Of a DNA stretch of 64,000 bases, positions 1 to 56,285 are shown piece by piece (position 1 is the first letter of the stretch; every line of letters starts with the position of its first letter). The stretch lies in NCBI GenBank assembly GCA_001247695.2, contig LGRX02035295.1:1-64000 (forward strand), in the 5' to 3' direction. A program made the translations under genes and the position numbers. A model generated the notes under the pieces. It worked only from the letters and a program-made list of their open reading frames with translations. It searched no databases and was not told the DNA's origin. Source of the DNA: Cymbomonas tetramitiformis (lineage: Eukaryota > Chlorophyta > Pyramimonadophyceae > Pyramimonadales > Pyramimonadaceae).

Positions 1-19
1 GGAGGCAATATCGTGGCAC

Positions 20-1548
20 TTGGCATGGTGCCCTTTTCACATTTGGTGGGGGCGCTGTGTGGCCTCACTTTTGAGCTGGCTGCCGATGTGGTGGTCGGAT
101 ACTCGACGTTATCCCCGTCGTGCGTACTATAACGTTTGGGTCTTATGGGCCCTCGCCTGCATTTGGTACGTTGGATTGCTTGTCGTGCGCACCACGGGCA
201 TCTATGCTGGCGTGCACCGTGTTCATGGCGAAGGATGGATGGTAGTGCCCCTGCGGGCTGTGATCGTTTCCTTGGCGTGTTGGTCGCAGTGTGCAGCCGC
301 CCTCCTGATCGCAGTCCTTGCTTGGCTTTGGGTTTGTGCCAGCGTCTTCGCGGAGGATGTGGCGTGCCATGTCCCTCATGTCCCGAGCGACCATTTGGAC
401 ACGCATCGCATTCGACGTGGCCATGGATGGGCTGTTCCGTCCCTACGTTGGTCTCAAGTTTTCTTGTTGGGCCGCGTGCGTCTGCCCGCTTTGCCGGCCA
501 GGTTGGACAAACCTCGCTTTGCGGCGCGCTGGGCGCAGCTTCAACGCAATCTTCGACTTCATTACATCGCGCAGGCCACCTACGTAACGCTGGTCCTAGC
601 GATCGTGGTCTTCACCGCCGCTGGTGGGAGTACTCGCTTGGCGCACGGGGGGTGGAGGGTATTGGCGTGCTTCTTCGCTTCGAACTCGCCAGCAGCCGCA
701 GTGCGTTTCAACAGAATTTTACGATTTTTTCTGCTTTTGTGCGGAATTCTGTGGGTCGCTGGCAAGCTGGCTGAGAGCGTGCCCATGTGCGATGTCATGT
801 CGCCCACGCGCAGTGCTTGGGGTAGATCCCCCTGCACTTCATGGGAGGCCCAGCAGTCCTCGAGGCAATGGGAGCCGGGCTGGGAAGCCAACATCGCGGA
901 GCAGGATGAGGTCTTGCCGTACACCGTGCTGGACGAGCTTCAACCTTTGGGTGACACGACAGTGACCAAGGACGAGGCAGCGTGGCTCGACACTGAGCTC
1001 AATGCCACGTTTGGAGGACATCCTGACTTCAAGGAGGAACACTGGGAGGAAATGCGGAATGTTCTTCGCAGGTGCAAGACCACCTTTGCCAACAGCCCTC
1101 ACGATTTGAAAGGCTACAAGGGCAACGCGAAGCACAACACGTTCTCCATCCCTTTCGTAGACGAATCCAAGGCCGCCTACCAGAGACCTAGGAAGTACAG
1201 TCCGGGCGAGCAGGAGATCATCGATATCCATTGCAAGGAACTTTTGGAATATGGTTTCATAGAGCCAGCAGCCAAGCATTGCAGGCATGCGAGCAACGTG
1301 GTCGTAGCTGGCAAGAAGGATCACGAGACTGGCCTGTGGACTCAGACGAGGTTCTGCGTGGACCTCAGGGGTGTCAATCGGCACTCCCTCAAAGACAACA
1401 CGCTGCCGCACCGACCAGAGGAGCTCTACCAGAAGGTGGCCAAAGCCAAGTTCAAGACCACTCTGGATGCCACCAAAGCTTTCCACCAGATCCCCATGGC
1501 TACAGAAGAGGACAGGAGCAAGACGGCGTTTTGGTGGAAGAATCAGCT
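20..1548 (+). CDS. Pol polyprotein, N-terminal part: hydrophobic segments, then RT fingers
   Basis: The true start may lie upstream of the window; 20 is only the first in-window start. Residues 1-250 are rich in Trp and contain about four hydrophobic stretches (near residues 40-60, 80-110, 185-205 and 230-250) that look like membrane helices. I see no gag zinc knuckle or aspartic protease motif here. From about residue 330 the sequence is a normal Gypsy pre-RT linker, followed by RT motifs with [12 protein letters not shown] and the motif A region [11 protein letters not shown], which holds the first catalytic Asp. The frame then changes near 1549, where the RT continues in the frame of the next entry. 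The hydrophobic region is unusual for Gypsy and could be a lineage-specific domain. Confidence 0.7.
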
Positions 1549-4500
1549 CGTACCAATACACCTCGATGCCTTTTGGTGCAGCTGGAGCTACTTCTGCGTT
1601 CGTAAGAATCATGGACTACGAGTTACGACACTTGCAGCATTGCACGGTGGCGTACGTCGATGACGTAGTGGTCTATACGGATTCCACGCCTGAGCAGCAT
1701 TTGAAGGACGTTGAGGATGTACTTCGCACCTTGGGGGATGCTGGCATCCGTTTGCATGCAGGCAAGAGCACTTTTGGTGCAGCCACGGTGGACTTTCTGG
1801 GCTATCGTATTGGCCACAACTCCATTGGCGCGCAAGAAGCCAAATGCAAGGCCATACAAGAGCTTCCAAGCCCTCAGGACAAGACTGGGCTCCGCTCGAT
1901 CTTGGGTATGATGAATTACTACAAGGGCCTGGTGGGTGAGCCAGGGGGGCCAAACTACTCTGAGATGGCCCGCCCTCTCAACGACTTGCTCAAGAAGGAG
2001 GTCACTGACATCAAGGCAGCCTGGGGGAAGCAGCAAGATCAAGCACTCCAAGAACTTAAGGATGCCCTCTGTTCTGGGAGGTGCCTGAGGCCCATCGATT
2101 ACGACAGACCTCTCATATTGTACACTGACTGGAGCACCTATGGCATTGGCGCAGTGCTGGGCCAGAAGGACGATGACGGGAAGGAGTACATTTGTATGGC
2201 AATCAGCCGATCTCTGAGTAAAACGGAGAGACAGTACGCCAGCTTCAAAGGTGAGATGCTCGCAGTGGTATGGGCAGTGCGCACGTTGAGGCAGTACTTG
2301 CATGGAGTCCACTTCACCTTGGTGACCGACCACTCACCGCTCACCACCCTGATGGAGAAGGCCGATCTCCAAGGGCAACATCTACGCTGGGCAATCAGCT
2401 TGCAGGAGTTCGACTTCACGGTGCAGTACCGTCCAGGAGCTAAGAACAGCAACGCTGACGTGCCGTCTCGCTACCCACTGCCGTCCACGACAGATGAGAC
2501 TGGAGCAAGGCATGAGAGGGAGAAGGTGACTGCGCTTCACGCAGGCGTGGGGGAAGTTCACACGAAGGACTTCTGTGACCACTTGTGCCTTATGTTGGCT
2601 GGGGATGCTTCCCCAGGGGAAGAGGCCACGCCAGAGGTGCAGGTTGCCAACTACTGCAGGATAGCTGCCATGGAGCAGCTGGGTACAGGACCAGTGCATC
2701 GTCTGTTCGATTTGCACTACCACGAGGAATTAGAATGCAATCATGGGGACACGTTCGACACCGACTTGCCCGAGCTGGTGACCGACTCTGGGAGGCTAGC
2801 CAGAGCAGCTTGGAAGGCGCTGAGCCTGGTTAGGTCAACGCGAGGCACGCATGGCGAGGGAAGCCCTGCTGTGTACAGCAATGAGTACTTTGAAGGTGAG
2901 CGCATTCTGAAGCCCGAGAAGGTCGACACCAGGGTGCTGAGCATCCGATTCTTCTCGCAAGCTCGGCAGGAAGGCGTGGTGTGCTACGAACCATGTGGAG
3001 GCCTATGTGCTGGGCTGGAAATGTTGCTCCGCAGTGGGATGAAGGTGGATCGCTACCTGTATCAGGACATATCCCCGAGCAGTCAGACGGTTGCCAGAGC
3101 CAGGTGTGCAGCATTGCTGAGACGATACCCTGACCTCATCTCGCCCCATGCAATAGAGATTGGGGCTCTACCCCAAGACCTGCGCGAGACCACCAGCGCC
3201 GACTTCATACGAGCAGGAGCTCTTCAAGGACGCCAGTGGGTCATGGTATGTGGGTTCCCATGTCAGGATCTCTCCCCTGCTGGAACACTCACAGGCCTGG
3301 ATGGCAGGCACAGCAAATTATTTTATGAAGTGGTCAGGCTTCTGTCCACACTCCAGCAGCTGCAGCGGCAGAGGCCTCCAGGTTATATCCTGGAAAATGT
3401 TTCTCCGTTGTCGCACAGACCTGGAACCAAGATCAGGGACGAGGTGTTCCCGTACATTGCCAGCGTCATTGGTAGACCAGTGTCCTTTGATGCAGCACAA
3501 GCAGGCGCCTACGCACATCGGTTGCGGGCGTATTGGAGCAACTTGTTCCAGAGCCACCAGTTTCGCTCCGTCATGAGCAAGGTGGTGAGACCAGAAGGAC
3601 GAATTGTATCGTCAATCATATGCAAGGGCTGGCATCCCAGGCCAGTGATAAGGACAGACCGCGCGCCTCACTACGTGGTGAACGTGGTGGGAGAACCATT
3701 GAGGGCATTACCCACCATCATGGCGACGCAAGGGTCAAGAGCGTTCAGAAGAGCGAGGATGGGCACTGTGGTGCGCAACCAGGACGGCGAAGACGCCGAG
3801 GAAGAATCTCGAGAAGTTAACCTTGAAGAGAAGACGCGAGCCATGGGCTACAGCGCAAGTGAGCTACGCATGGCCGACGGCCTAAGTGACGTAGAATTGG
3901 CGAGCATTCTGGGCCTGGCCATGGATCGCAGAGCAATGGAACTGCTGATGGCAGTCGCAGAAGCAAGCAGGAAGGGGCTTCCTCACAGCAAGGAATCCCC
4001 AGAGGCGGAGAATTCCCCAGGACAGCCCATCGCTGTAGACAACAACTGGGCAGACCACGAGAGGTCGGACCTTCAGCAGAGGGAAGCTTTGCTGGCGGAA
4101 TGGGTTGAGAATTCGAACGCATACACCCAGCAGGTGGCGAAGACTATGACCCATCGCGACTGGGAGGAGAAGCTGCGGATAATGTGCTCGCAAGGGCAGA
4201 AAGGCGCAGAAGGAATTGGAGCCCAGCGACAGAAGGCTGGAACCAAGAAGAAGAAGGAGAACGAGTGGCAGCTTTACACCATGGCGCAGTATCGTCAGAG
4301 GCATGAGAACCACTTCGTGAAGGAGGGCGCGATCCCAGCAGCGCACGTGGATGTGCCTGCCTGGAGTCCGCCTACCAGAGAGTCAGAGATGAGGCTCCCC
4401 AGGTTGACATGTACCACCAGGTTCGAGGACCTGATGGCCAGCGTGGCCGAGCAGCAGGCAGATCGTGACAAGCATCGAGATATACACGATGATGCATGGT

Positions 4501-7028
4501 GCCTCAGATGGTTGAAGTCCAATGGTAGAGTGAGGTTGCCCGAAGAGGAAGTTCGTCGAGTAAGGAGGCGAGCAGCACGACATCGATGGGACGAGGCCAC
4601 GGACGAGATCTACATGGTCACTATGTCGGGCAAGGAGGTGAGAATACCTAAGCCTGCTGACCGTCTTGCGTTGGTCAAAGAATACCACTCCAGAACGGGA
4701 CATTGGGGCATAAGGCGGACACAGCATCTTTTGTGGCAGCGCCATTGGTGGGCCGACTTGAAGAAAGACGTGGAGGCTGTGGTCACTCAGTGTGAGACCT
4801 GTCAGCGTGTGAAGACTCATTATGCGAGAGAGGAGGCATGTTTATCCCCCCTTGAGATCGTGTCGTTCATGTATCGCTGGTCGCTGGATCTGGCATGGCC
4901 CTCGAGGAGAGAGACCAAGTCTGGCACCAACCGAGTGCTCATCATGACCGAGCACTACACCAGATTCATAGTCTGCGTGCCCATTCCCGACAAGGAGGCG
5001 AGCACCATCGCAGCGGCATTTCGCAGCCATGTCCTGGCTGTGTTTGGTGCGCCAGCAGAATGCTTGGTGGATGGAGGCAAGGAGTTTGAAGGCGAGTTCA
5101 AGCAGTTGTGCAGAGATTGCCTGATTGACCGGCGAGTCACCTCGCCAGACTCACCAGAAGGCAATGGGCTGACCGAGCGAGTGGTACGCACTATGAAGTT
5201 CTGCTTTAAGAAGCTTGCCTTGGAGAAGGGTCTCGATTATGAGTGGGATGAGCAGCTTTGGCCACTGGTGCTGAGCTATAATGCAGCACGCCAGGAGTCC
5301 ACGGGGGTGGCGCCGTTCACCATGTTGTTCGCCCAAGAGGCAGTAGTGCCGCCTGATTTGAAACGGGCACCCAGCATAGATTTTGCTGTGGAGGTCGAAG
5401 ATGAGAAGGATGCCAGGGTCAAGGACCTCCTCCAGAGAGCACAGGTGGTGAGGCGACTGATGGTACACGCTGGTTGCAGCCTGGAGGTTGCGCAGCATCG
5501 TGACACATTACATTACGAAAGGAGAAGGGGTGGGGGCTACGAGCCTAGTCCACACCAGTTCAAGGTGGGCGATTTCGTCTATATCAGGCGGAAGCCCCGC
5601 AGCGGCATGGAAGTCGCGACCAAATCCGCCATCCTGAAGCTGGTCAAGATACAGCGAGATGGTGTGGTGGTGCTCGAGGACGCCACCAAGTTAAGAGAGA
5701 AGAGCACCGTGCAGAGCATCGCGCCATGTCACCTACAGGTGAAGGATCAGTATGACTGCAGTGCAGCCGTTCCCAGTAAGCACCTAGCATGTGAAGTTTG
5801 CAGGAAGACCGATGGGGAGGCAGAGATGCTGTTGTGTGACACGTGCAACAGGGGGTATCACTTGTGGTGTTTGACCCCAGCACTGGATGGAGTACCAGAA
5901 GGTAAGTGGCTATGCCCCATGTGCTCAGGCACGGGGAGGCAAGCCGCCAATGCCGAGGTGCAGACCCAGAAAGACGAGAGCTCTGGTGCCCTAGAGGACA
6001 AATTGGGCATGAGGGAGCAGCAATTGAATGAGAAGCTGTCGGCGGAGATGCGCCTGTTGCCAGCAGACGTGGGTCCTCGTCGGGTGGTGAAGGGAGACAA
6101 GTTCCAGCCTTGGCATGCCATTTCATCGAGAGAGATGCTGTTGAAAGAGGAGGACATGTTCTTGGGCATGCCAGATCAGATTGATTGGGGAAGGCAGGAC
6201 AAGCTCTCTGAGGCTGTGCAGATCTTCATGCCAGGGCATTGGAATGAGGGGCATCGCACGGTGCTGAGCAAGAAATATCGAGAACAGAAGGCCTTGGCAA
6301 GGCATCTGAGGGATGCACCTCTTGTGCCTGCGTTGGCTGAAGAAGAAGTTGAAAGACGAGGAGAGCTGAGACACATGACTAAGGCTCAGGTGAGAGAAGC
6401 TAGTGCGCTGCAGTGGGGGCTTGAACTGGTCATTACAGTGCCCTCTGAGGTGAGGCGTTTGGCGACAGAGGTGGACTGGAAGTCCGTCGATGGCGTGTGG
6501 GACCCATGGGCAGGCACTGGGGTCATCAGTGAGGTGATGATGGAGCAATGGCCGCAGTTGAGATTCATGAACAATGACTGGAACTCTCAGTTGGGCTGGT
6601 CTGAGGCGCATGACGCACTTCAACCAGGTAACTATCGTATATGGAAGGAGAAGTATGGTGTCTGTGACGCAGTGGTGACTTCGCCTTGGTTCGCAGCGCT
6701 GGATATCGCGTTTCCGTTGGCGGTAATGGCCAGTCGTGTGGTGGCATGTGTCCACGTTCCATCTTATTACTTGACAGACATGACCGAGAGCAGGGCTGCG
6801 TACTTCAGACGATTGAGTCAGACAGGACGCTTGCATGTGATTGGGCATCTGGAACATGGACCTATTGGCCGCAGGTGTATGTGGGTCTTGGTGTTCAAGA
6901 ACCCATTGATCAGAGCCAGAATGTTACAAGGCGGAGAAGGTGAGGGCATTGGTATGTTCACTTTCAGTTTGGGCAAGTTCATGGCAGATGGTGATACGAC
7001 CCAGTATGCGGAGCAAGCCCACATTTGA
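1549..7028 (+). CDS. Pol polyprotein, main part: RT palm, RNase H, DNMT3-like C5-methyltransferase, integrase, PHD finger, second MTase-like domain
   Basis: The frame is open from 1371, but homology to RT starts near 1549. Residue numbers here count from 1371. The RT motif YVDD is at residues 95-98. RNase H spans about 245-370 ([22 protein letters not shown]). A cytosine-5 DNA methyltransferase spans about 530-865, with motif I near CYEPCGG, motif [10 protein letters not shown] with the catalytic Cys, motif VI ENV, a motif VIII-like [11 protein letters not shown], and a C-terminal motif X-like stretch. KVDRYL and the [10 protein letters not shown] block resemble the DNMT3 family. The integrase has an HHCC zinc region (about 1104-1145) and a DDE core with D, D (VDGGKEF) and E (EGNGLTERV). 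A C4HC3 PHD finger lies at about 1474-1518. The last 250 residues hold DPWAGTG (1711) and TSPWF (1771), a SAM-methyltransferase pattern. The stop is TGA. Confidence 0.85.
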
Positions 7029-7054
7029 GTCTGTGCTACTGCACGCAGCAGCTA

Positions 7055-7066
7055 CAGATGGGGGAT
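7055..7066 (+). promoter_or_regulatory. Polypurine tract of the Gypsy element
   Basis: A purine-rich stretch ending in GATGGGGGA lies immediately before the TG that opens the 3' LTR. This is the position expected for the plus-strand primer of reverse transcription. Confidence 0.6.
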
Positions 7067-7806
7067 GTTGGAATCTGGGCTTGCATATAAGAGTTCAGCG
7101 TTCGATAACAGGATATCGGAATTTTAAAAATTTTGTAGCTCTACGATCTTATGCTGTGTTGAGAGTTGCTCGTACAGTCACCGGCACCAGTGAATATTAA
7201 TGATGCTTATGATCAGTCGCGAGTGTTAAGTTCGTTCGATTCCGAGATGGTACCATCATATGCACGCGTTTGCGACAGCTGTAACAAACGCCGGCTTCTC
7301 ATGGTACCGCGCCGGGTTTGTTCAGCTGGTGACACGCATGACAGTGGTGACAGTATGACAGGCTTCGCGAAGATGACCATCTGTGAGATGCAGACTTGCC
7401 AGAGAAGATATTGTCAATATCAGGTTACTGAGGAATGATACGATGACGACGGCAGTGACTCCTTTGCCACTGACGTGTCAGTCAGAATGTGTTAAACGGT
7501 AACAGTATTAAAGCTGGCACGGAATAATGACTTTCCATTGGCCAGATGAAGATTCGAGGGCTAGAACCCGTTACAGTTTTGGGAAATGTGACAGAGCATT
7601 GAGAGATAAGTGACCTCTGACCGAAGGTCAGACTGGTGGACTCATTATTGTTTTGCCTTCGCAAGTACTAGGTGGCTGTTCGCGTGCCAGTGCTAGAGTG
7701 CTAAGACAGTTCTGCTCACAGCTTTTGTACACACAATAATTCGTATTTTGTGGTATAATATCAATTTTGACGGATATATTTTACTGCTGTTTTCATACTT
7801 TTTCAT
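7067..7806 (+). repeat. 3' LTR of the Gypsy element (740 bp)
   Basis: The repeat starts TGTTGGAATC right after the purine tract and ends in CTTTTTCA at 7806, where a second copy of its own start begins. TG...CA ends and a 740-bp length fit an LTR. A TATA-like GGTATAATATC lies near 7750. Without the 5' LTR the boundaries rest on this internal evidence only. Confidence 0.65.
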
Positions 7807-8018
7807 GTTGGAATCTGGGCTTGCATATAAGAGTTCAGCGTTCGATAACAGGATATCAGAATTTTAAAAATTTTGTAGCTCTGCGATCTTATGCTGTGTT
7901 GAGAATTGCTTGGTCAGTTACCGGCACCAGTGAATATTAATGATGCTTATGATCAGTCGCGAGTGTTAAGTTCGTTCGATTCCGGGATGGTACCATCATA
8001 TGCACGCGTTTGCGACAG
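7807..8018 (+). repeat. Truncated second LTR copy
   Basis: These 212 bases repeat 7067-7278 with fewer than ten differences, then end abruptly at GCGACAG. The copy directly abuts the first LTR with no spacer. It could come from unequal recombination, a 2-LTR-type junction, or an earlier insertion at the same site. Confidence 0.7.
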
Positions 8019-8896: not shown

Positions 8897-9148
8897 AATC
8901 TGTTCAATACTACTTCAATACGTGAGGGCTCATTCTAATACGTTAGCGATTGCAGGCGTATTGAAATGGCGTATTGGAGATGTATTGAAAACTGCTGATG
9001 TCAGCTTTGCCAGTGCCACGTCAGACGGATCTTCGCAAAACTGACTTGGCACTTTTTCGACCCATCTCCAATACGCCATTTCAATACGCCTGCAATCGCT
9101 AACGTATTAGAATGAGCCCTCACGTATTGCAGTAGTATTGAACAGATT
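8897..9148. repeat. Long inverted repeat, 86-bp arms, 80-bp spacer
   Basis: Bases 8897-8982 and 9063-9148 are reverse complements with one mismatch. The spacer is GC-richer and unrelated. This would form a long hairpin as RNA or single-stranded DNA and may be a foldback/MITE-like element. Confidence 0.85.
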
Positions 9149-9299: not shown

Positions 9300-9440
9300 T
9301 TAGATGGAGGTGGTACACTTCGCCAGCGAGGAGGAGCTCAACTCCTCGCAGACAAGGTGTATACCTCCAGTGGGACTCGAACCCACTACCGCAGGCTTTG
9401 AAGACCGACGGCCAACCACTAGACCATTGTGACAACGTGA
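9300..9440 (-). mobile_element. tRNA-derived SINE-like sequence
   Basis: On the minus strand an A-box-like TGGTCTAGTGG is followed about 32 bases later by a perfect B box GGTTCGAGTCC in a T-arm with a paired GTGGG/CCCAC stem. The predicted acceptor ends do not pair, and the anticodon stem (loop CTTCAAA) is weak, so this is not a functional tRNA. The sequence continues into a body with TATACACC and CTCCTC blocks, as in a tRNA-headed SINE. Confidence 0.5.
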
Positions 9441-11759: not shown

Positions 11760-12620
11760 ATTCAATATTAATTGTGTTCAATATGCCTCTCGTTGACATA
11801 TGCAATAGGTCCACAGCATACTTGCAGCATGTTGAATATGTCTGTGCAACATGCATGCAATAGGTCTTCAGTATATATCCAATATAGGCAACTTTTATTT
11901 CAATACATATGCAATATGTCCACAGTATATATACAGCATATTGAATTTGCATGTTCAATACGTATGCAATAGGTCCGCAGTATGTATCCAACATACTTAA
12001 TGTTCCGTTTCAATACATATGCAATATGTCCGCAATATATATACAGCATATTGAATTTTCATGTTCAATACGTATGCAATAGGTCCGCAGTATGTATCCA
12101 ACATACTAAATGTACCGTTTCAATACATATGCAATATGTCCGCAATATATATACAGCATATTGAATTTTCATGTTTAATACGTATGCAATAGGTCCGCAG
12201 TATGTATCCAACATACTGAATGTTCCGTTTCAATACATATGCAATATGTCCGCAATATATATACAGCATATTGAATTTTCATGTTCAATATGTATGCAAT
12301 AGGTCCGCAGTATGTATCCAATATACTAAATGTACCGTTTCAATACATATTCAATAGGTCCACAATATATATACAACATATTGAATTTACATGTTCAATA
12401 CGTATGCAATATGTCCGCAGTATGTATCCAACATACTGAATGTTCCGTTTCAATACATATTCAATAGGTCCACAATATATATACAACATATTGAATTTAC
12501 ATGTTCAATACGTATGCAGTAGGTCCGCAGTGTGTATCCAACATATTGAATGTTGACTTACAATATGTATACAATATGTATACAATATGTATACAATATG
12601 TGGGCAATATGTCTGCAACA
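11760..12620. repeat. 110-bp tandem satellite built from two diverged ~55-bp halves
   Basis: The word GTTCAATA recurs at 11953, 12063, 12173, 12283, 12393 and 12503, an exact 110-bp period (one copy reads GTTTAATA). Each unit has two related halves (GCAATAGGTCCGCAGTATG and GCAATATGTCCGCAATATA). Flanking sequence on both sides carries more decayed halves. Short open frames here come from the repeat and are not genes. Confidence 0.9.
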
Positions 12621-27032: not shown

Positions 27033-27424
27033 CTGCAAGGCGGGCACACCACACTGACATAATTTCTCTGCGTCTACCCGGCCCAGAGTAGGGTCGGGAA
27101 ATTAATATACAGGGCGTGGTTTTTCTGTTTCTTTTACTTTTTCTCTGCATCTACCAATCGCACGATGTGCCTATGCTTCCTTTTCGATCTCACTACTCGG
27201 TAAACCTGTCATGCTATGCAGAACCTGCGACACACCTGGAGTGATCATGGCTTTGAGCTCGTGCCCAACCCGGCTATGTGTAGCCCACAGGCCAGACGCC
27301 ATGCGCTCAATGCCATCAAATCTCACATCATATGACATGTAACGAGCCTAACCCCCCCTCTTGCTTAAGAGCATGTACTTGTTCTCGGCACTCTGATGGT
27401 GACGCAAGAATTGCCGGGCGTCAC

Positions 27425-28063
27425 CAGCTGCGGGGAGACGCTGCTGAGGGACACCCTTTCCACGCTGGAGTTTCCGCCAATCACTCGATAGCTGAAGGCA
27501 GCTGCCAAAGGGAGGTCTTCGTCCACCCAGCCACTCGCGTTGAGGGTGAAGATTGTCTGCAGCGCCGCGCCCTCTGCCGGGCTCACCTCCAGACGGCCCG
27601 TTCTGGGAGGGCTGTTGACGACCACTTCCATGCTGGCGCTGCCAGTGGCATCGCCTTGCCGCTCCGCATCGAGGCGGAACAAATACCGCCCTCCCTCCGA
27701 GAGCGCACCTGGGTGCAGCACCAGCGTGGCTCCCCCTCGGGTGGCAGAGGCACGCACTTCCTCACTATTCAGATCCACCTCTTCGGCGCTCGTGCCCGCC
27801 ACCGCGTCCACCGACCATAAGAGACTCACCTCCTGCGATGCGCCTGAGCTGCTGCTGTTACTTGCTGGAGACGCGGCGGGCGCAGTGGAGACACTGCCCT
27901 GCAGCGTCAGTTTATTGCCCGCGTTCAGCTTCCCTGCCACGGGGGTAATCACGGGTACCGGGGGGGCGCCCTTGGTCACGATGACCGTGCTGTATGCCAC
28001 GGAGGACCGGGGGCCCTTGCTGGCTGTGAGCTTGAAGGTGTGCTCCCGACCGGCTTCCTCTCC
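27425..28063 (-). CDS. Giant surface protein, REJ core exon
   Basis: The exon is bounded by TATGCAG|GGAGAG and CAGCTG|GTGACG, both phase 0. It includes the REJ signature order: HTFKLTASKGP, a Ser/Ala-rich loop, LLWSVD, RYLFRLDAERQGDATGSA, VNSPPRTGRLEVSPAEGAAL, and SGWVDEDLPLAAAFSY. REJ modules in sea-urchin sperm receptors and polycystin-1 act in extracellular adhesion and signalling. The upstream intron holds the DIRS-like element. Confidence 0.85.
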
Positions 28064-28543
28064 CTGCATACGGCCGAGGCACCATCCCGAGCGCACACCC
28101 GCATGACTACCGATCATCGCAGCCCGGTGATGGACGGCTGTGATAGAGCTGACAGACGATGCTGCACTCCCTGTGAGACATGTAGCTTTCAAAAAGAACA
28201 TCTTGGTATCTGATACGACTCTTCCATGTAGGGTGTAGTTACTACAACCTCATTCGATCCCATTTGGCACTCGCACTTCTTTGTGTCCCATTTTGTAACG
28301 TGCTTTAAGATACAGCTCAGCGCAGTGAACATTTGCAAGTAGCATGCCATGAAGGTTTCATTTCTGCAGCGAGTAACTGTAGCCCCCTAAAACAATCTAC
28401 ATGCCCAGAGTTTGGATCGGCCTCTATGATAGATGACCATCTTGAGAGGGAGGGAGGGGGGCAGGTTTAGACTGCTATGGCCCCAACCACACCAGATGAG
28501 GGCCAAAAGAAGAAGAGATAATGAACCATATTTTAAGATGTTT

Positions 28544-34518: not shown

Positions 34519-35281
34519 TGCAATGCCCCCGACACCTCACCCCCGACCCACCGTTACCCTGCCCTAGCTCAACCCTTAGCTTCCCTCGCTCTCAGAGCAC
34601 TCCGTAATTATAATCAATATTCCACAAAGACATACGGTTGATTTTGTGGTACTACACCGTGGCCAGGGGTGCTTTCACCCCGTACCACAGCCAAGATAGT
34701 AAGCTCTCGTTGCGCTGTGCGCTCGGTCTCACATGACGCCTGCGCGTGCACGACTTCCTCTCCCTGCGACAGATCATGACGCTCCGCCGTCGCAGATCTC
34801 TGCCGTTTGCTGGGTGCATGCTGGGTCACCAGCAGCTTGCGGCTGTCATTTCCCACATTGTTGCAGTGCCCTTTGTGGGCCGCGCCTGCAGGTAGGGGGA
34901 AGCGAGCCGAAGAGTGCTGCAGGCCTACTATAGCTCCGCTCGTCGATGAAGAGGAGCCACCCCTGGAGATACCTTTCCTTGGCCCCATTCCCCTGCTGCA
35001 TTTCGCGTTGCATAGCCGTGCACCGGAAGACTTTCCGCAGTGAATCTCTTTATTTATGCTATGCTAGATGATGGGCTTTGTTGAGGAGCCCTTTGTTTAA
35101 GTGCATTTGGGGATTTCCTGTTTGCTAGGGATGCCTGGCTCTGAACCTTCTGACTCTCTTGCATGGACTCTTGCACTTTTCGGACGTTCGATTGCTGTAA
35201 TGATACATTTGAAATGCAAATACTCCCCGGCCCTCCGCAAGAAGCATGCATGCGCCGATGCTGGGAGGAGCTTTGCCGGAC
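34519..35281 (-). other. Intron between EGF-like and REJ exons
   Basis: No coding exon is clear in this stretch. The flanking splice sites (donor at 35281, acceptor before 34518) are compatible in phase 0. Confidence 0.5.
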
Positions 35282-35793
35282 CTTGCCGACGACCTGCACC
35301 TCCTGGCTGGAGAGCACCACCCCGTCCACCACCGAGGAGTCCACGATCTCCACCGTCATGGCACACGCCTCGCATACCGTGCCGTTGCCCACGTAGCCCT
35401 CGGGGCACTCCTCACACGTGTGGCCCTCGCCTGGGGCGGCCATGTCATAGCACTGCGCGCTGTTGCCGTACGGATCCTGGAAGCAAGGGCTGTCCGCGCA
35501 TCCGTCCAAGTCGAGGCACCTGGTGTCCCCAGAGCCGGAGTACCCCTCTGGGCACGCGCTGCACACCGTCAGGGGCCCGTCCTGGGTGCAGGTTGTGATT
35601 GCGTCGCAGCCGCCGTTGTTCTCCACGCACTCGGTGCTCGGGGTGCACCCTGCGAGGCCGCTGCCCTTGTACCCCTCCGGGCAGGCAGTGCACTCATAGC
35701 CGCCGAGCGTGTTTGTGCAGGCTGTCAACGAGTCGCAAGTGGAAGCGTCGCCCGAGGCGCATTCGTCGACATCAGCGCACACCGCGCCGTCAC
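35282..35793 (-). CDS. Giant surface protein, EGF-like repeats leading into REJ
   Basis: The exon begins after GGGCAG in phase 1 (DGAVCADVDECASG) and ends at GGCAAG|GTCCGG. It holds about three EGF-like or EGF-type cysteine units (VDECASGDASTCDS, NNGGCDAITTC, PCFQDPYGNSAQC) with the calcium-binding DxDEC start in the first. It then changes to CAMTVEIVDSSVVDGVV, where the REJ module starts. Confidence 0.8.
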
Positions 35794-35959
35794 CTGCCCG
35801 CAGCACCCCGTGGGATCGCTTGAGATGAGCCCCACGCGCCGTGGATCTTGCACGAGTATCTCGGCCGCTAGCTTCACGCTGCCTCTGGTTGGTGAGGATC
35901 ACAGAGCATGCTGCGCGCAGTGATTTGCCCACACTCCTGCGATGGTCGTGGGCGCGCAC

Positions 35960-38879: not shown

Positions 38880-41529
38880 CGGAGTGAGGTGAGGGGCATG
38901 GAGGTGGGAGTGAAGGGGGACGGAGGTGGGGTTGAAGGGGACGGAGGGTGGGAGTGAGGGGGACGGAGGTGGGAGTGAGGGGGACGGAGGTGGAGGGGAA
39001 GGGAATGGAAGTGGGGGTAAGGGGACGGAGGTGGGGTTGAAGGGGACGGAGGTGGGAATGAGGGGGACGGAGGTGGGAGGGGAAGGAATGGGGGTAAGGG
39101 GGACGAGGTGGGGGCGAAGGGGATGGAGGTGGGGGTGACGGAGGTGGAGCAGGTGGTGGCTTTGGATGAGAGGGTGGATATGGCACGGGTGGAGGGGACG
39201 GTGGTGGGGAGTACACAACAGCCGCTGTCGTTGTGACTACTTCGCTGGCAGCCATGCTCCCGTACGAGCTGAACTCCGGGCTCGTGAATATCGACCCCGT
39301 GTCACTTGCCAACGTCGACTCAAACTGTTCAGTAGACACACCCACAGCTGCCACTGGGATCTCAACACTGGAGGCCACGGAGACACTGGAGGAGGCGATG
39401 CTCGTGATGACAACGGCGCTGGAGCTGACACCGGCGGAGGCGGCCATCTGCGCTTTGAACGAGGCCCTGAACGAGGCGGCCCACGTGGAATTTGAGAAGC
39501 TGGCGATGTCCAGGTCAGAGAAGGCAATGCTGGATGACACCACCCTTACCGTGACCGTACCAGGCGGTGGCGGTGGCGGTGGCAGCGGCGGCGGCGGAGG
39601 GGGCAGCGGCGGTGGCAGCGGGGGTGGGGGAGGTGGTGCTGAGGACACTGTAGGTAAGTAGCTTGGTGTAAATGTGGGAGTTCTGGAACTCGGACTTGCA
39701 GTGGGTGTGTGGGAGAGAGGAGATCCGGTGGGGGCCTCAGTGGGCAGCACAGAAGGTACAGGGGTGGTTGGGGGTGCTGTGGTGGGAGCTGCGGTTGAGA
39801 CCAATGATGGCGACAAGGTGGGAGAAGATGTCAGGAGTGCAGTAGTGGGAGAGGCAGAGGTCGGGAAAGCGGTTGTTGGGAATCCTGTGGGTGTTGCCAT
39901 GGGCGGTTTTGTGGCCGGGGACCGAGTCCGTGATTGGGTGGGAGGTGCAGAGGTGGGTGATAGTGTCGTGGGTACCGAGGTGGCAGGGGATCGAGTCGGT
40001 GATTGGGTGGGAGGTGCAGATGTGGGTGATAGTGTCGTGGGTACCGAGGTGGCAGGGGATCGAGTCGGTGATTGGGTGGAAGGTGCAGAGGTGGGTGACC
40101 CTGTGGTGGGCACTGAGGTAGCCGGGGACCGCCGTAAGCTTGATAACTTATGTGTGCCTTGCCCGGCAACGATGGCAACCCGGTTCCCTCGTGCACCGGA
40201 TATCTCTGAGCTCGAGTCCGACGTCTGCAGGCTCTGTATCGTCCCAACTATCGGGCTCAGCGTGCTTGCTCCAGACTGAACTTGCAGAGTCACCGTGTCC
40301 ACGGTGACCAAGCCCGGCTGCCAGTCAAAACCATCTGCAAAGATCAACACCTGAGTTGGGGGATCGTTAATGAAGCACAAGCTGCACGCAATTGCCACCA
40401 CATCCGTGTCCACAATTGTCAACAAGATGTCAAAAAGATTCAGAGTGTTCGAGCCCGTCTCTATTTGCACCGGGACTGAAAACGTCTCGCCCGCAGCTGT
40501 TGACGTGAACTGCACTCCGTCGTTCAACCCCAGGTCCACATCGTTAGGCATGGGCCTCAAGTTTGCATACACGGACACCGTGTCGGTTACTAGATCTGTG
40601 ATGTCAGACGAGCTGCACGTCGATGCGATAGTTAGCACCACTGCCTGGTAATGATTGTCTAGCAGGGTTGCCACGCCTTCGGCCGTCACGGATACCTTAT
40701 GGGTGGCGTCGCTCGTGAAGGTGGTATACTCGGTGGCTGCCACCCAGCTGGACTGGGTTCCGCCCACAATGTCTGTGAACTGCGTGCCGTCACTGAACAC
40801 AGCCGTCACGCTCAGCGTCTTCGTGCTGTCTTTCACCGCATAAAAAGTGGTAGGAAAGTTAGAACCACTCCACGAGGTGGTGTGGGTGAGCGATGTCACG
40901 CTCACGCGGTTGCTCTCCACCGTGTATGTAAATGCCGTGGAAGCCACTGAGTAGTATGTTGCCGTCACGTCGCAACTGCCATCAGCGCTTGCTTCCACTA
41001 TGCCGTTGCTTGCTGTCACGCTCAGACCTGACGATTGGGATATCGCATAGCTGGACTCTGAGGTCACGTCATGCGTGTTACCGTCCGACAGCGTGGCAGT
41101 GGCCATCAATACTGCTCTCTGATAGGTGCGTGTGCACTGCACCAAGCTCAGGACACTTTCAGTGAAGCTGCTACTGCCATTATAGGTGGGATACGGGTTG
41201 GAGCTCAAAGCCACTGATGAAACCCCAATCACGGTCACAATCGTCGTCGCGGTAATGCTGCTGGCATACGTTGGAAATGACACCTCAATTGTGACCGCCC
41301 CGAAGCCTGTTGTCCCCTCTATGACTGAGGCCGTCACCGACGATGTGCCCACCGTGACCTCCACCAGGGCACCTCCAGACGTCACGGTGTATGTAGAACG
41401 AGAATCAAGCGTGAAGTCCCTTGTGGTGCCGTCATCGAATGTCGCCGTGACAGTGAGTGTACTGGACGTTGCAGTATTGATCGGGCTGTTTGCAGCTCCG
41501 TCAGATGATCTTGAAATCTTATTAGTAGG
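38880..41529 (-). CDS. Giant surface protein, copy 1: Big2-like domains, Ser/Thr/Pro linker, polyproline, SEA-like segment
   Basis: The exon starts after TGTGTGCAG in phase 0 (PTNKISRSSDG). It encodes Ig-like Big2-type repeats (TLTVTATFDDGTTRDF; VLMATATLSDG; LSVTAVFSDGTQF) and a cohesin-like region (FSVPVQIETGSNTLNLF). A 23-residue repeat (SPTRSPATSVPTTLSPTSAP) in about four copies comes next, then a PPPPLPPPP stretch. A globular segment of about 110 residues (TVTVRVVSSSIAFSDLD ...) is followed by a second SPPPP linker. The last 250 bases are a low-complexity 21-bp repeat in which the reading frame moves relative to the EGF-like exon. The protein is probably secreted or wall-associated. Confidence 0.75.
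38885..39150. repeat. 21-bp G-rich coding minisatellite in the proline-rich linker
   Basis: GGGGACGGAGGTGGGAGTGAG-type units repeat with small indels; the minus strand reads as Pro/Ser/His-rich protein in all three frames. Indels that are not multiples of three make the true frame uncertain. Confidence 0.75.
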
Positions 41530-41696
41530 CTGCACACACAAGACAAGCCACCTTTTTCACTCATCAATTCCACACTCTCTATCACCAACCAGGTATCTGC
41601 AACCTTGCACAGCAACTGCAGAGAGCACCTTACTTCAGCAGAGACTCTCTCTGAATGTCAAGTAAACAAGTCACATGCCGCACATCCAAAACTCAC

Positions 41697-43157
41697 CGAT
41701 GCAGTGATCGTTACACTCGTCGGTGTGGCCAATGCCACAGTTACTCCTCCAAAGCCAGAAGCGATTGTCGTTGAATCACACGAGTCTGTCCATGTCGCTA
41801 TAAGCAGCTGTTCAGAGTCGGCACTTGATGGACTATCCGGTACAGTTCCCTTGAAGTCTGCACTTCCAAAGCTTTCCGTTGATACCGTCAGCGCTGAACT
41901 GTACGAAGAGTTCACGGTGACGCCTGACCCATCCGCCGATGGCACCTCCTGCCAGTACCCATCACTGAAATGTGCAAACACATAAATCGGACCACTGTCC
42001 TCCTCCGCAGTCAAGGACTGCACAAAAGTCGTCTGCGCTGTGAAAGTAGTGCTAGGAGCGAGGCTGGCTGATGAGTCCACCCCACTCCATGTCGCCCCCG
42101 TCACCAGCACCGCACTCAGCACCGACACAGTGACTGCCGTGTCCGTCACCGTGACACTCGTGCTGGCCGACAGCCCGCTTGCCCCACCAGAGATGGACAT
42201 TGTTGCAGTCCCCACCGCTATACCTGTGGCTGTTGTCCCAGACACCGAAGCCACCCCACTATCACTGGATTCAAACGACACCAGGCACGTCACATCTATG
42301 TTGGCCACGTAGGTCAACTCGCTTCCGCCCCATGTTGCACTGGCCGACAGCTCAGTTCTCTGATACAATGAGCTGGAGCAGCTCGAAGCTTGCCTCGCCC
42401 CCGTCACCGCGTTCAGCTCCGCGTCATCCGCCGTCACCCTTATGGATGATGGCAACCATACCCGGAATGGCACACTTGTGTTGTACGCCCCATCTGTCAC
42501 GCTCACGGATATGCTGCTTGCACCTGCACTCTGTGAGCTCGTCAGCACTACATCGCAGCTGCTTAGTGTGGCCACAGTGGCATCCGCCAGGCCCGAGCAT
42601 GTTGCGGCGGTTGTGGTTGTGTCACTCTCCCCGCATTTGTTATACACTCTCTTCACCGTGATGCTGCTTGTCACATCCATTCCATCAAGGTACGCAGTGT
42701 TGAAAAGCTCAGCCTGCGCAGCGTATGCATAGATTCCCACCTGTATGAGCTCTGTCACCGTCAGCTGGCCCTGCGTTTGAGCTCCTCCCCGTGCATCGTT
42801 CACCTGCCCCGTCTTCTGCCGTGCAAACTCCACGTTGGCAGTAGTCACCATATGATAAACACTCAAGCTCAACACATTGCTGGATGTGCCAATGGTCGCC
42901 GACGATACCACAGAGAACGCCACCGTGAACAGTGTCACAGCAGTTCCAGTCACATCCGCATCCGCCGTCGAAGACGACAGCCCAGATACCACGACATTGA
43001 TCACGCCGTCAGTGCCAGAGCTCACTATGGGAGAAGTATACTTTGAATCTCCAGATAAGCTGTTATACGTCAGTATGCTGCTTGTGTAATACACAATCGC
43101 AGCAAATCCGCCCAGCACATATTCTGTGCCGCCACTCGTTGTGGTCCGCGCCGACAC
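41697..43157 (-). CDS. Giant surface protein, copy 1: large Ig-like exon
   Basis: The exon is bounded by GGTGCAG|GTGTCG and GCATCG|GTGAGT, both phase 0. It encodes about 487 residues with a cohesin-like start (EYVLGGFAAIVYYTSSILTY) and several Big2-like Ig domains (TELSASATWGGSELTYV; VSFESSDSGVASVSGT). A second copy 11,036 bp away is nearly identical. Confidence 0.8.
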
Positions 43158-43310
43158 CTGCACCCCGGCAATGGCCCGGCCGAGCCGAGCGAGTCACTCC
43201 CCGGTCCCAGCTTCCCTGTAACTCCCCATATGCGCAATCCATGCACCTCTGCCGCCACCGCCACCCAGATACCTGCAGCGCCTCACACCGTGATAGTTCA
43301 GTGGGCGCAC

Positions 43311-45000
43311 CTGAGAGGTGATGGAGTCCCCACCAAAGCGCGGGCTGTAGGGCATCGTGATCACCATACTCGGCTCGGAGAGAGCTGCATGGGAAGCCTG
43401 CATTCACACATTCTCCCTCACACCTCACCACAATCAGCATCAAAAGCATCACTGCCTCAGCCCCTCCCACTCGTATGCGCGCGTCTCACTCCTCAGATCC
43501 TCTCCAACAACCACACCACTACATGCGCGCCCCCTGGGCACCAGCACTGACCTCTTAAAGCCTCCCACGATCCTTCTATACATCATGCCGCCCACGTAAT
43601 ATCACTCCGAATGTGCAAGTCAGGGCGCTTCTCACCTCTGCTCCTAATGTCAGTGTCAGAGAGGAGCTTTCCGCAACCACAGTGTTGCTATACAACACTT
43701 GTACCTGCCATAGCACGTGCCGTCAAACATCAACAACCAGCCAGCCATTTGATCTGCTCATCAGTCCCAGCATAATGATGCGTCATCACCCTTTTTCTCC
43801 CCCCCTTCTCAGCCCCCACGCGTACCTTCACTGAGCCAGTCACGTCGCCTGAGGTGCTGAACTCTGAGGACAGCACATTAGATGTGTACAAGCATGTTGC
43901 TGCTCCGGTGGAAGAGCTCGGAGCTGAGCAGGCTGAGGACAGAGAGGTGCTGCCAGCCGTGATCACCAAGTCGACTGTGATCCCACCCGTCGTCACCTGC
44001 ACCTTGCCATGAGACCAGAGACGGGAATGAGCAAATGCCACATAGAGTAATGTTCTCCACCCTTGCGCCCCATCTCACCGGACCGGACTTTCCTGACAAA
44101 CTGTTCGGCAGTCCCCGTGCATGACTGCGTCCCTTTCCCAATACCTCGCCTGCCTCTGCATGTATGCTTGCCAAGCAAGTGCCCCTTGCTTGTGTGCTGC
44201 AGCGATACAGTGCCCATTATGTAAGCTTCATTCCTTCTCGGCGGCCCCAGGACAGCGGCGATATAGCAGCAGATCATCCACGTCAGGTATTCACCTGCGG
44301 CCGGCCGTCTTCATCGCGCACGTAATACTGCGCACTTATGACATGATTATCGACATAAATAGTGCTCGTGCGCAGCAGCAAAGATATGGACGCAGCTTGC
44401 TTGGTGGCAGTGGTAAACGTTGGGCTATGGTTAGTGCTGAAACTGCTGTCCAGCCCCCCGCCTGCACAGCTCGTGCCCCCAATGTACACCTCCACATTGC
44501 CTGCCACATACACCCATTCCCCCAGTCGCTTCTCAAGCCCAAAAGTGTGCAGTGTCATCACACTTCCTGCAGTGGTAACACACCCTGAGAGCACACCTCC
44601 ATCTCCACACCTCGCTCCCCGCACAAGGTGGTCTCAGGGCTTGCCTCTCTGTCAAAACCCAGAAGGGTGCTCGTCGCATATTTGCGGCTTGCTGCATAAA
44701 TGCTCTCCGAGCCGAATTATCCACGAGAAAGAGGACGAGCCTGGCCCCTTAGAAACCTACCTGACGTGCTTGGGATCCTGTTATTAAATGTTGAGAATGT
44801 GCGGCTGAAAGAGGGAGCGACAGAGGTCGTGCTGCCTTGGGGGAAGGCTGCACTAGTTGACGTCAGCCGCAACACAGTGCGGAGGTAAGTCGCAAACGAA
44901 TGTCGATACACCGTGGGAGCACTAGTAGGGGCAGAAGATGCAGTTGGTGCGCTCGTTGCGGTTGGGGTACTTGTCGCTGTCGCTGCCGGTGCTGAGATGG
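43311..45000 (-). CDS. Giant surface protein, copy 1: five 5'-side exons
   Basis: Exons at 43311-43397, 43636-43704, 43826-43996, 44295-44566 and 44761 to about 45000 all have GT-AG borders and matching phases: 0, 0, 0, then phase 1 between the last two. They encode MVITMPYSPRFGGDSITSQ, VQVLYSNTVVAES, VTTGGITVDLVITAGS, a lectin/LamG-like segment (EWVYVAGNVEVYIGG ... LLLRTSTIYVDNH) and a Thr/Pro-rich linker. The EWVYVAG/ISLLLRTSTIYVDNH pairing resembles a concanavalin-like fold. The linker runs upstream into the 39-bp minisatellite, so the true 5' end is unclear. Confidence 0.65.
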
Positions 45001-45593
45001 GGAGCCCTGCGATACGGCCAAAATCAGCTTCTTCGGAGATGGGGAGCCGTGCGTTGCGGTCAAAAGCAGCTTCTGAGATGGGGAGCCTCGCGTTGCGGCC
45101 AAACACAGCTGTTAAGATGGGGAGTCGTGCAATGATGCAAAAAGCAGCTGCTGAGATGGGGAGCCCTTCAATGTGGCCAAAAGCAGCTGCTGACATGGGG
45201 AGCTTTGCAATGCGACAACCAAAAGCAGTCGCTGAGATGGGGATCCTTGCAATGCGGCCAAAAGCGGCTTCTGATATGGGGCGCCCTGCAATGCGGCCAA
45301 AAGCAGCTTGGAGATGGGGAGCCCTGCAATGCGACGGCCAAAATAAAGCAAGCTGTTGAGATGGGGAGCCCTGCGTGCTGAGATGGGGAGCCGTCGCCGG
45401 TCAAAAGCAGCTGCTGAGATGGGGAGCCTCGCGGCGTGGCTAAAAACAACTGCTGAGATGGGGATCCCTGCAATGTTTCAAAAAGCAGCTGCTGAGATGG
45501 GGAGCTCTGCAATGCGGCCAAAAGCAGCTGCTGAGATGGGGAGCTCTGCAATGCGACGGCCAAAAGCAGCTGCTAAGATGGGGAGCCCTTTAA

Positions 45594-52565: not shown

Positions 52566-52732
52566 CTGCACACACAAGACAAGCCACCTTTTTCACTCAT
52601 CAATTCCACACTCTCTATCACCAACCAGGTATCTGCAACCTTGCACAGCAACTGCAGAGAGCACCTTACTTCAGCAGAGACTCTCTCTGAATGTCAAGTA
52701 AACAAGTCACATGCCGCACATCCAAAACTCAC

Positions 52733-54193
52733 CGATGCAGTGATCGTTACACTCGTCGGTGTGGCCAATGCCACAGTTACTCCTCCAAAGCCAGAAGCGA
52801 TTGTCGTTGAATCACACGAGTCTGTCCATGTCGCTATAAGCAGCTGCTCAGAGTCGGCACTTGATGGACTATCTGGTACAGTTCCCTTGAAGTCTGCACT
52901 TCCAAAGCTTTCCGTTGATACCGTCAGCGCTGAACTGTACGAAGAGTTCACGGTGACGCCTGACCCATCCGCCGATGGCACCTCCTGCCAGTACCCGTCA
53001 CTGAAATGTGCAAACACATAAATCGGACCACTGTCCTCCTCCGCAGTCAAGGACTGCACAAAAGTCGTCTGCGCTGTGAAAGTAGTGCTAGGAGCGAGGC
53101 TGGCTGATGAGTCCACCCCGCTCCATGTCGCCCCCGTCACCAGCACCGCACTCAGCACCGACACAGTGACTGCCGTGTCCGTCACCGTGACACTCGTGCT
53201 GGCCGACAGCCCGCTTGCCCCACCAGAGATGGACATTGTTGCAGTCCCCACCGCTATACCTGTGGCTGTTGTCCCAGACACCGAAGCCACCCCACTATCA
53301 CTGGATTCAAACGACACCAGGCACGTCACATCTATGTTGGCCACGTAGGTCAACTCGCTTCCGCCCCATGTTGCACTGGCCGACAGCTCAGTTCTCTGAT
53401 ACAATGAGCTGGAGCAGCTCGAAGCTTGCCTCGCCCCCGTCACCGCGTTCAGCTCCGCGTCATCCGCCGTCACCCTTATGGATGATGGCAACCATACCCG
53501 GAATGGCACACTTGTGTTGTACGCCCCATCTGTCACGCTCACGGATATGCTGCTTGCACCTGCACTCTGTGAGCTCGTCAGCACTACATCGCAGCTGCTT
53601 AGTGTGGCCACAGTGGCATCCGCCAGGCCCGAGCATGTTGCGGCGGTTGTGGTTGTGTCACTCTCCCCGCATTTGTTATACACTCTCTTCACCGTGATGC
53701 TGCTTGTCACATCCGTTCCATCAAGGTACGCAGTGTTGAAAAGCTCAGCCTGCGCAGCGTATGCATAGATTCCCACCTGTATGAGCTCTGTCACCGTCAG
53801 CTGGCCCTGCGTTTGAGCTCCTCCCCGTGCATCGTTCACCTGCCCCGTCTTCTGCTGTGCAAACTCCACGTTGGCAGTAGTCACCATATGATAAACACTC
53901 AAGCTCAACACATTGCTGGATGTGCCAATGGTCGCCGACGATACCACAGAGAACGCCACCGTGAACAGTGTCACAGCAGTTCCAGTCACATCCGCATCCG
54001 CCGTCGAAGACGACAGCCCAGATACCGCGACAGTGATCACGCCGTCAGTGCCAGAGCTCACTATGGGAGAAGTATACTTTGAATCTCCAGATAAGCTGTT
54101 ATACGTCAGTATGCTGCTTGTGTAATACACACTCGCAATAAATCCGCCCAGCACATATTCTGTGCCGCCACTCGTTGTGGTCCGCGCCGACAC
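52733..54193 (-). CDS. Giant surface protein, copy 2: large Ig-like exon
   Basis: Same splice borders and length as copy 1 (41697-43157). The proteins differ at only about seven residues, for example GGFIASVYY against GGFAAIVYY. Introns on both sides are equally conserved, so the similarity is from recent duplication or gene conversion, not selection alone. Confidence 0.8.
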
Positions 54194-54346
54194 CTGCACC
54201 CCGGCAATGGCCCGGCCGAGCCGAGCGAGTCACTCCCCGGTCCCAGCTTCCCTGCAACTCCCCATATGCGCAATCCATGCACCTCTGCCGCCACCGCCAC
54301 CCAGATACCTGCAGCGCCTCACAACGTGATAGTTCAGTGGGCGCAC

Positions 54347-56035: not shown

Positions 56036-56285
56036 GAGATGGGGAGCCCTGCGATGTGGCCAAACACAGCTGCTGAGATGGGGAGCCGTGCGTTGTGGTC
56101 AAACGCAGCTTCTAAGATAGGGAGCCTCGCGGTGCAGCCAAACACAGCTGCTGAGATGGGGAGCCCTGCAATACGGCCAAAAGCAGCTGAGACTGAGATG
56201 GAGAGCCCTGCAAGGCGGCGGCCAAAAGTTGCTGCTGAGAGGGGGAGCCCTGCAATGTGGCTAAAGCAGCTGCTGAGATGAGAGC

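Follow-up and report, generated by a model that had tools for sequence, protein, structure and literature searches.

That retrotransposons can encode the very class of enzyme used to silence them is a known puzzle. A Gypsy element with a Dnmt3 in its Pol has already been published, namely KnitGypsy-Dnmt3 from Klebsormidium nitens (de Mendoza et al. 2018, PMC5890265). For SymbioDIRS-Dnmt3 of Symbiodinium, CG methylation was shown in yeast; the KnitGypsy DNMT gave no methylation in yeast, a result judged inconclusive by its authors (PMC5890265). Here, we analysed a stretch of 64,000 nucleotides (the window) from the prasinophyte Cymbomonas tetramitiformis. Its left end holds a Ty3/Gypsy Pol, for which Pfam and fold searches gave the order RT part, RNase H, DNMT, integrase, PHD finger and class-I methyltransferase-like tail, with the following features:

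2..1549, + strand: frame-2 coding part, the 3' end of which is the N-terminal RT half (RVT_1 match at about 1382-1540, 15.5 bits, below cut-off)
1549..1551, + strand: frame break within the RT, where protein matches shift from frame 2 to frame 3
1551..1811, + strand: C-terminal RT half with YVDD (Pfam RVT_1, 57 bits, residues 79-168)
2022..2411, + strand: RNase H (PF17919, E 2e-30; PF17917, E 1e-32)
2943..3947, + strand: DNMT3-type C5-methyltransferase domain (Pfam, alignment, profile and fold searches; catalytic Cys codon at 3261-3263)
4653..5156, + strand: integrase, H2C2 zinc domain and catalytic core (PF17921, E 4e-16; rve, 30.8 bits, slightly below the cut-off of 32.6)
5790..5924, + strand: PHD finger (PF00628, 44.4 bits, cut-off 24)
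6180..6317, + strand: conserved helical segment that precedes the tail domain and carries an LMPG-like motif, with weak H2B similarity
6408..6962, + strand: class-I methyltransferase-like tail with DPWAGTG and SPWF (fold and alignment)
7026..7028, + strand: Pol stop codon
7057..7065, + strand: purine-rich stretch GATGGGGGA, a putative polypurine tract (from the sequence)
7066..7805, + strand: 3' LTR-like repeat of 740 bp, TG...CA
7806..8018, + strand: partial second repeat copy directly adjoining the first, 96% identical to 7066-7278

The sequence-only reading had described one polyprotein in an open frame of about 1.8 kaa, with a DNMT3-like methyltransferase recognisable by motifs I, IV (PCQ), VI (ENV) and VIII between RNase H and integrase, with a PHD finger downstream and a further methylase-like fold at the C-terminus. 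Every named domain was found in that order, the tail by its class-I methyltransferase fold, but the N-terminal RT half lies in another frame. The Pol frame on the + strand covers 1308-7025, with the open frame given as 1371-7028; it contains only part of RT and is not the whole Pol. The element extends past the left edge of the window, and Gag, protease, PBS and the 5' repeat lie outside the view. The order RT-RNase H-integrase with an rve integrase is that of Ty3/Gypsy elements, and Pfam detected rve in all 20 relatives scanned. The element does not match a DIRS retrotransposon: it has the rve integrase, and the window frames scanned gave no Pfam match to a tyrosine recombinase, the DIRS hallmark. 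At the 3' end, the only end in the window, the 740-bp repeat and its partial second copy are seen; the latter may be a truncated neighbouring LTR or the terminal B of a split repeat. The repeats of KnitGypsy are reported to have the A-coding-B-A-B arrangement of DIRS elements (PMC5890265), and the 3' end seen here could match it. A relative with a second layout (L081, see below), assembled as a circle with an end overlap of 127 bp, does not separate an LTR plus truncated LTR from a split repeat.

The RT of this copy is broken. Of the nine protein matches listed between the 2..1549 part and relatives (71-92%), six stop at 1549. Eight protein clusters inspected (P0002, P0003, P0004, P0006, P0009, P0010, P0015 and P0018) are continuous across the break. 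The closest cluster, P0001, follows the window in the wrong frame before jumping forward, and the RT of this sister copy is thus perhaps broken too. Since its RT is split near 1550, the copy in the window is probably inactive. The suggestion that the frame was kept functional until recently holds for the family and for the DNMT, integrase, PHD and tail frame of this copy, but not for its RT.

A broken RT could also point to a chance chimeric insertion, or to an assembly or gene-model artefact, and some Cymbomonas gene models are joined to other domains (such as P0012 with ankyrin repeats). We give this explanation a negligible probability, as identical domain junctions are found again in metagenomes and in further species. 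RNase H, DNMT and integrase occur together in 148 of 182 related proteins, invariably in that order, and further genomic copies with the same layout were found. Because the same set and junctions recur, the comparison of sequences argues against a chance chimera and identifies the combination as a widespread family of green-algal Ty3/Gypsy retrotransposons.

The DNMT of the window matched Pfam DNA_methylase with 37.3 bits (cut-off 22), and the protein matches of the region (n=108, E 5e-279 to 6e-22) exceed what chance would give. Profile and fold searches ranked DNMT3 as its top kin; the predicted model matches DNMT3A/B, and all 50 Foldseek matches listed were DNMT3 entries. In DRM enzymes the motif order is rearranged, with VI-X ahead of I-IV. 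The window DNMT has the unrearranged order I, IV, VI, VIII to X, and a DRM or CMT origin was rejected because of this order and the DNMT3 ranking. A viral source was likewise rejected. The scan of viral contigs gave at least 509 stretches with relatives, of which 80 were kept; among the matches listed, the best tblastn E value was 2e-13 and the best segments were 21-50% identical, and by their scores these relatives were judged ordinary C5-methylases.

PCQ, ENV and RLR are present in the window, with the catalytic Cys, the ENV Glu and RxR, each conserved in 162 of 163 relatives. Catalysis by the DNMT of this family is predicted from its sequences. Several observations count against an active writer of methylation: the residue before the catalytic Cys is Glu in 106 and Pro in 42 of the 163 relatives, and the Pleodorina sequence no longer has the catalytic motif. 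The yeast result for the KnitGypsy DNMT weighs on the same side. In clusters P0104 and P0106, DNMT conservation (33 and 31%) is only slightly above that of the linkers.

The tail domain was found in 98 of the 105 relatives of sufficient length. Its class-I methyltransferase fold resembles that of N6-adenine enzymes. The window tail matched no Pfam family. The D12 profile (PF02086) matched the tails of nine of 17 relatives at E<=0.5 (best 4e-4), the window's not among them. When 20 full-length relatives were scanned, two matched it at E<=0.01. Tail conservation in P0020, P0104 and P0106 (24, 20 and 24%) is little or no better than in linkers. A phage tblastn with the window tail domain as query gave no match; the more canonical P0062 tail matched 11 records at 28-32% across half of its length (E 1e-3 to 4e-2). 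Motif IV is the non-canonical SPWF in the window, and the canonical [DNS]PP[YFW] occurs in only eight of 98 rows. This motif, together with the Glu before the catalytic Cys, would suit a DNMT carried in Pol for DNA binding or structure, with dispensable catalysis, beside a tail that is a degenerate methylase remnant. We consider that explanation decidedly unlikely, as all but one DNMT of the 163 retain the catalytic Cys, Glu and both Arg, and 62 of 101 tails have a motif I-like sequence.

The zinc-ligand columns of the PHD finger (Cys4-His-Cys3) are occupied in 94 of 95 rows. Other readers among the 20 relatives scanned were a PTM/DIR17 Tudor (three) and a chromodomain (one). For the segment between PHD finger and tail, the best E value for a match to H2B was 0.013, and H2B or H2B-H2A chains made up 11 of the 15 matches listed with E up to 1. 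When its profile was compared with three H2B sequences, the probability was 10%, better than all 40 column shuffles; we do not claim homology to histone H2B.

The same domain set in many related elements suggests that such elements may mark their own DNA while spreading. We give an even chance to the likeliest model, in which a green-algal Gypsy Pol with a lasting DNMT3, PHD finger and second methylase methylates its own cDNA or pre-integration DNA while the PHD finger aims it at chromatin. Catalysis, its substrate and timing, the targeting and any gain for the element are inferred, as follows. The DNMT would enter the particle together with RT and integrase and would methylate cytosines of the newly made cDNA, either ahead of integration or as it takes place. 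The PHD finger, sited where chromoviruses hold a chromodomain, would direct the integration complex towards a particular state of the histone H3 tail, with unmodified H3K4 a more probable target than H3K4me3. The tail domain might add a second methyl mark or bind substrate.

Alternatively, the DNMT might act after integration on nuclear copies, where it would start silencing and hold down their number, allowing both host and element to persist. Slowed retrotransposition has been discussed as one possibility by de Mendoza et al., and KnitGypsy copies in K. nitens carry CHH and CHG methylation (PMC5890265). We regard such self-restraint as unlikely, since the fusion beside the integrase and the conservation across many lineages are explained at least as well by a role within the element's own cycle. 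A further possibility is that 5mC hides the cDNA from host attack on unmethylated foreign DNA, or that the methylases counter algal DNA viruses. We know of no host system in these algae that attacks unmethylated foreign DNA, and we find such protection rather improbable. Such a role has been proposed for retrotransposon methylases before (PMC5890265; PMC6338049), and Cymbomonas harbours many endogenous viral elements (PMC10675990).

In a second layout (L081, P0206, and Marchantia and Calypogeia proteins), the DNMT lies ahead of the RT, between protease and RT, and belongs to a separate DNMT group including liverworts. These DNMTs are related to that of the window, and L081 also has a PHD finger after the integrase, but it lacks the tail methylase. 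No tail-methylase match occurred in 34 second-layout sequences, which says little for most of them because they end near the DNMT; only L081 reaches the end of Pol. The DNMT may have been captured once or twice across the two layouts, which the tree cannot tell apart because its outgroups (human DNMT3A and HhaI, or DNMT3A alone) sit on very long branches. A bolder version of the self-marking model sees the green-algal clade as a self-contained reader-writer. Its PHD finger, with a Tudor in some members, would read the H3 tail, and Pol would write 5mC and N6-methyladenine on the element's cDNA, giving new copies that already carry host marks on arrival; the writer position, before RT or before integrase, would have split at the deep divergence of streptophyte-type and chlorophyte-type elements. 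We think this version quite unlikely.

A broad green-algal family that combines a DNMT fixed next to the integrase with a histone reader and another methylase makes the life-cycle role of the DNMT testable. It raises the questions of whether the cDNA is methylated, with which mark, and where integration occurs. Surveys with Pfam DNA_methylase may miss such elements because only 14 of the 20 relatives scanned match at E <= 0.01.

Among open-licence full texts, we found neither the full domain combination, in line with the sequence-only reading, nor the chlorophyte family, the pairing of a PHD finger with a second methylase, or a layout that tracks DNMT phylogeny. KnitGypsy-Dnmt3 shares with the window element the Gypsy LTR type and an unrearranged Dnmt3 with conserved key residues in the Pol ORF; it differs in its charophyte host, as compared by description only (PMC5890265). 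The word PHD is absent from the main text of that paper, in which no mention of a second methylase was met. SymbioDIRS-Dnmt3 also has Dnmt3 in Pol (PMC5890265), but it is a DIRS element with a tyrosine recombinase, unlike the window element with its rve integrase. Chromodomain Gypsy elements (chromoviruses) and the Ectocarpus Tudor Gypsy likewise have a reader module on the C-terminal side of Pol (PMC12477816), whereas the reader in the window is a PHD finger accompanied by methyltransferase domains.

A Ty3/Gypsy retrotransposon is cut off by the left edge of the window, which retains its 3′ part; the Pol frame (1308-7025, 1906 aa) contains Pfam matches in the order C-terminal half of the reverse transcriptase (RT), RNase H, DNA_methylase, Integrase_H2C2, rve and PHD. 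The N-terminal half of RT lies in frame 2, and the frame switch of the protein matches falls between 1549 and 1551. The related proteins P0003 and P0004 are continuous over this switch, and eight inspected clusters (P0002, P0003, P0004, P0006, P0009, P0010, P0015 and P0018) read through the break site. The closest cluster, P0001, keeps the window's wrong frame past the break. P0001 may represent the same locus in another assembly; because it is only 84% identical to the window across the frame-2 stretch, it is probably a sister copy having the break in common. Pol extends upstream beyond the window, as residue 1112 of P0015 aligns from window base 2. The frame-2 stretch upstream of RT (2-796) has several hydrophobic, transmembrane-like segments; it is 65-88% identical among Cymbomonas copies (longer matches), in contrast to 97-100% for RT in the closest copies, and is possibly non-coding in this frame. 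The 3′ end of the element is arranged as follows:

7026-7028, Pol stop codon
7057-7065, GATGGGGGA, between the Pol stop and the 740-bp repeat
7066-7805, 740-bp repeat with TG...CA ends
7806-8018, partial second copy of the repeat (96%), directly abutting the first

This arrangement can be read as a 3′ LTR next to a truncated neighbouring one, or as the B-A-B terminus of a direct repeat that is split, a structure stated for the Klebsormidium nitens element KnitGypsy-Dnmt3 in the Fig. 4 legend of PMC5890265. The window also contains:

8897-9148, inverted repeat whose arms of 114 nt are 89% complementary, adjoined by a 20-bp tandem repeat with sequence in common
9362-9433, minus strand, tRNA gene
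11796-12595, units of 55/110 bp repeated in tandem
27365-28201 and 35054-35959, minus strand, ORFs matching REJ (7e-28) and EGF (5e-10) domains, as in animal-like surface proteins
40116-45212 and 51133-56257, 5.1-kb duplication, 96.7% identical, 11 kb apart
41658-43163, minus strand, ORF matching a TMEM132 Ig-like domain

The methyltransferase domain belongs with DNMT3. As a single sequence it matched DNMT3A in the PDB (3e-6), and a 16-sequence profile matched DNMT3A (7e-17), DNMT3B (1.6e-14), chain 4onj, which we take to be a plant DRM (9e-10), DRM2 (5e-8) and HhaI (3e-7); DNMT2 appeared only at E 0.7; chains of DNMT1 or CMT were absent from the 56 matches with E of 10 or less. With the AlphaFold2 model (mean pLDDT 91.2, pTM 0.90), all 50 Foldseek matches listed were DNMT3 entries (best E 4e-16, TM ~0.8 on the target). 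Unlike in DRM, the motif order is not rearranged. Cys652, Glu696, Arg738, Arg740 and Asn745 are each retained in 162 of the 163 chlorophyte-type relatives whose DNMT match exceeds 290 residues. Immediately before the Cys, 106 of these relatives have Glu and 42 have Pro, the residue found in the window. A Pleodorina sequence is without the catalytic motif.

Search 1 retrieved 108 proteins from 8000 candidates scored, including proteins named for Cymbomonas tetramitiformis, a chlorophyte of the Pyramimonadales, that are up to 99% identical to the window over the whole DNMT region and on which the assignment of the window to that species rests. Search 2 retrieved 187, with 120 of them listed. The named hosts include Cymbomonas, Haematococcus, Chlamydomonas eustigma, Pleodorina, Monoraphidium and, by its JGI label, Chromochloris. 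A domain-profile scan of 217 sequences (214 proteins, two ORFs of the related metagenomic element L081 and the window) found RT, RNase H, DNMT, integrase, PHD and the C-terminal methyltransferase-like tail in this order in 115, everything but the tail in 18 and a DNMT match alone in 30. Because the profiles were built from the same sequences, domain presence was found by design, but domain order was not. Among the 182 proteins of searches 1 and 2, RNase H, DNMT and integrase occur together in 148, in that order in 148/148, and integrase precedes PHD in all 167 proteins with both. The 19 Cymbomonas-named clusters of search 1 show RNase H-DNMT-integrase in order (12) or a partial but compatible arrangement (7). 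P0152, a complete ORF labelled GHRQ01002908 in EukProt, looks by that label like the transcript of a relative. Extra domains in relatives (alignment A4) are a PTM/DIR17 Tudor (3/20), a G-patch (3/20) and a chromodomain (1/20).

Identity to the window by Pol segment (%), unaligned positions scored as different
P0014 (Cymbomonas copy): RNase H 84, DNMT 64, integrase 80, PHD 75, tail 77, linkers 59, 46, 34
P0021 (distant): DNMT 45, integrase 40, tail 41, linkers 30, 20, 18
P0020 (counter-case): tail 24, linkers 23, 20, 20
P0104 (counter-case): DNMT 33, tail 20, linkers 27, 12, 16
P0106 (counter-case): DNMT 31, tail 24, linkers 26, 17, 17

At the protein level, these identities are compatible with purifying selection, which would act on the DNMT in most compared copies and on the tail in some. 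A conserved stretch before the tail (6180-6317) is weakly similar to histone H2B over the final two helices of the latter (best E 0.013; hhalign probability 10%), and in the model a PG turn joins a short helix to a long one there.

A second layout places the DNMT before RT. L081 is a 9285-bp contig of a cyanobacterial MAG, taken as a eukaryotic contaminant, whose 127-bp end overlap gives a circular 9158-bp assembly. One frame encodes zinc-knuckle-like motifs (Gag-side), a sequence that weakly matches protease (E 8e-4), and the DNMT, followed past a single stop in the same frame by RT-RNase H-integrase-PHD (both parts within 3-6635), in which the domain-profile scan found no tail methylase; stop read-through could join the two parts. 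Search 3 with L081 retrieved 36 proteins, with named hosts that include Marchantia, Calypogeia and, weakly, Closterium. P0206 carries DNMT-RT-RNase H-integrase within one protein, and P0205 and P0210 carry DNMT-RT. Related DNMTs occur in P0200, P0202, P0204, P0205, P0207 and P0208, whose names give the liverworts Calypogeia and Marchantia as their source; in P0205 the RT start lies behind the DNMT. A 42-row tree (15/15 second-type rows, 26/45 first-type rows in list order with the Pleodorina row dropped, and DNMT3A) split the two types with support 97/89, and the split recurred in 100% of the trees from a bootstrap of 200 that had not settled; a 62-row quick tree gave 89 for the first type and 47 for the second. 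Where the layout of a row is visible, the position of the domain thus follows DNMT phylogeny, most second-type rows being partial (Gag-side and DNMT only). Since PHD lies behind integrase in both L081 and the first type, the data allow both domains to have been present in a shared ancestor, the DNMT having moved later; alternatively, the DNMT may have been captured twice.

Searches of open-licence full texts turned up no account of a Gypsy Pol that combines DNMT3, PHD and a further methylase. PMC12344493 places DNMT3 in LTR Copia and DIRS elements, whereas PMC5890265 says Gypsy; the main text of the latter has no words beginning chlorophyt, prasinophyt or Marchantia. According to section 10 of PMC5890265, the DNMT3 domain of the Symbiodinium element SymbioDIRS showed de novo CG methylation in yeast, and the KnitGypsy DNMT showed none, a result judged inconclusive. 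From its place between RNase H and integrase, the DNMT3 domain would travel with the nascent cDNA, and its putative role is most likely methylation of cDNA or pre-integration DNA.

The eight zinc-ligand columns of the PHD finger are occupied in 94 of 95 rows, and its best solved relatives include CHD4, MLL3, DPF2, KMT2D, WSTF, ATXR5, BAZ2A, KDM5, PHF21A, UHRF1 and AIRE. Several of these PHDs read unmodified H3K4 or H3R2, and the column where Trp is common in H3K4me3 readers is Gly in 82 of the 95 family rows; by this analogy, we prefer a predicted reader of unmodified H3. Integrases of chromodomain Gypsy elements are targeted via the chromodomain. The PHD of the window element stands on the same side of integrase as that chromodomain, which suggests that it would target integration likewise.
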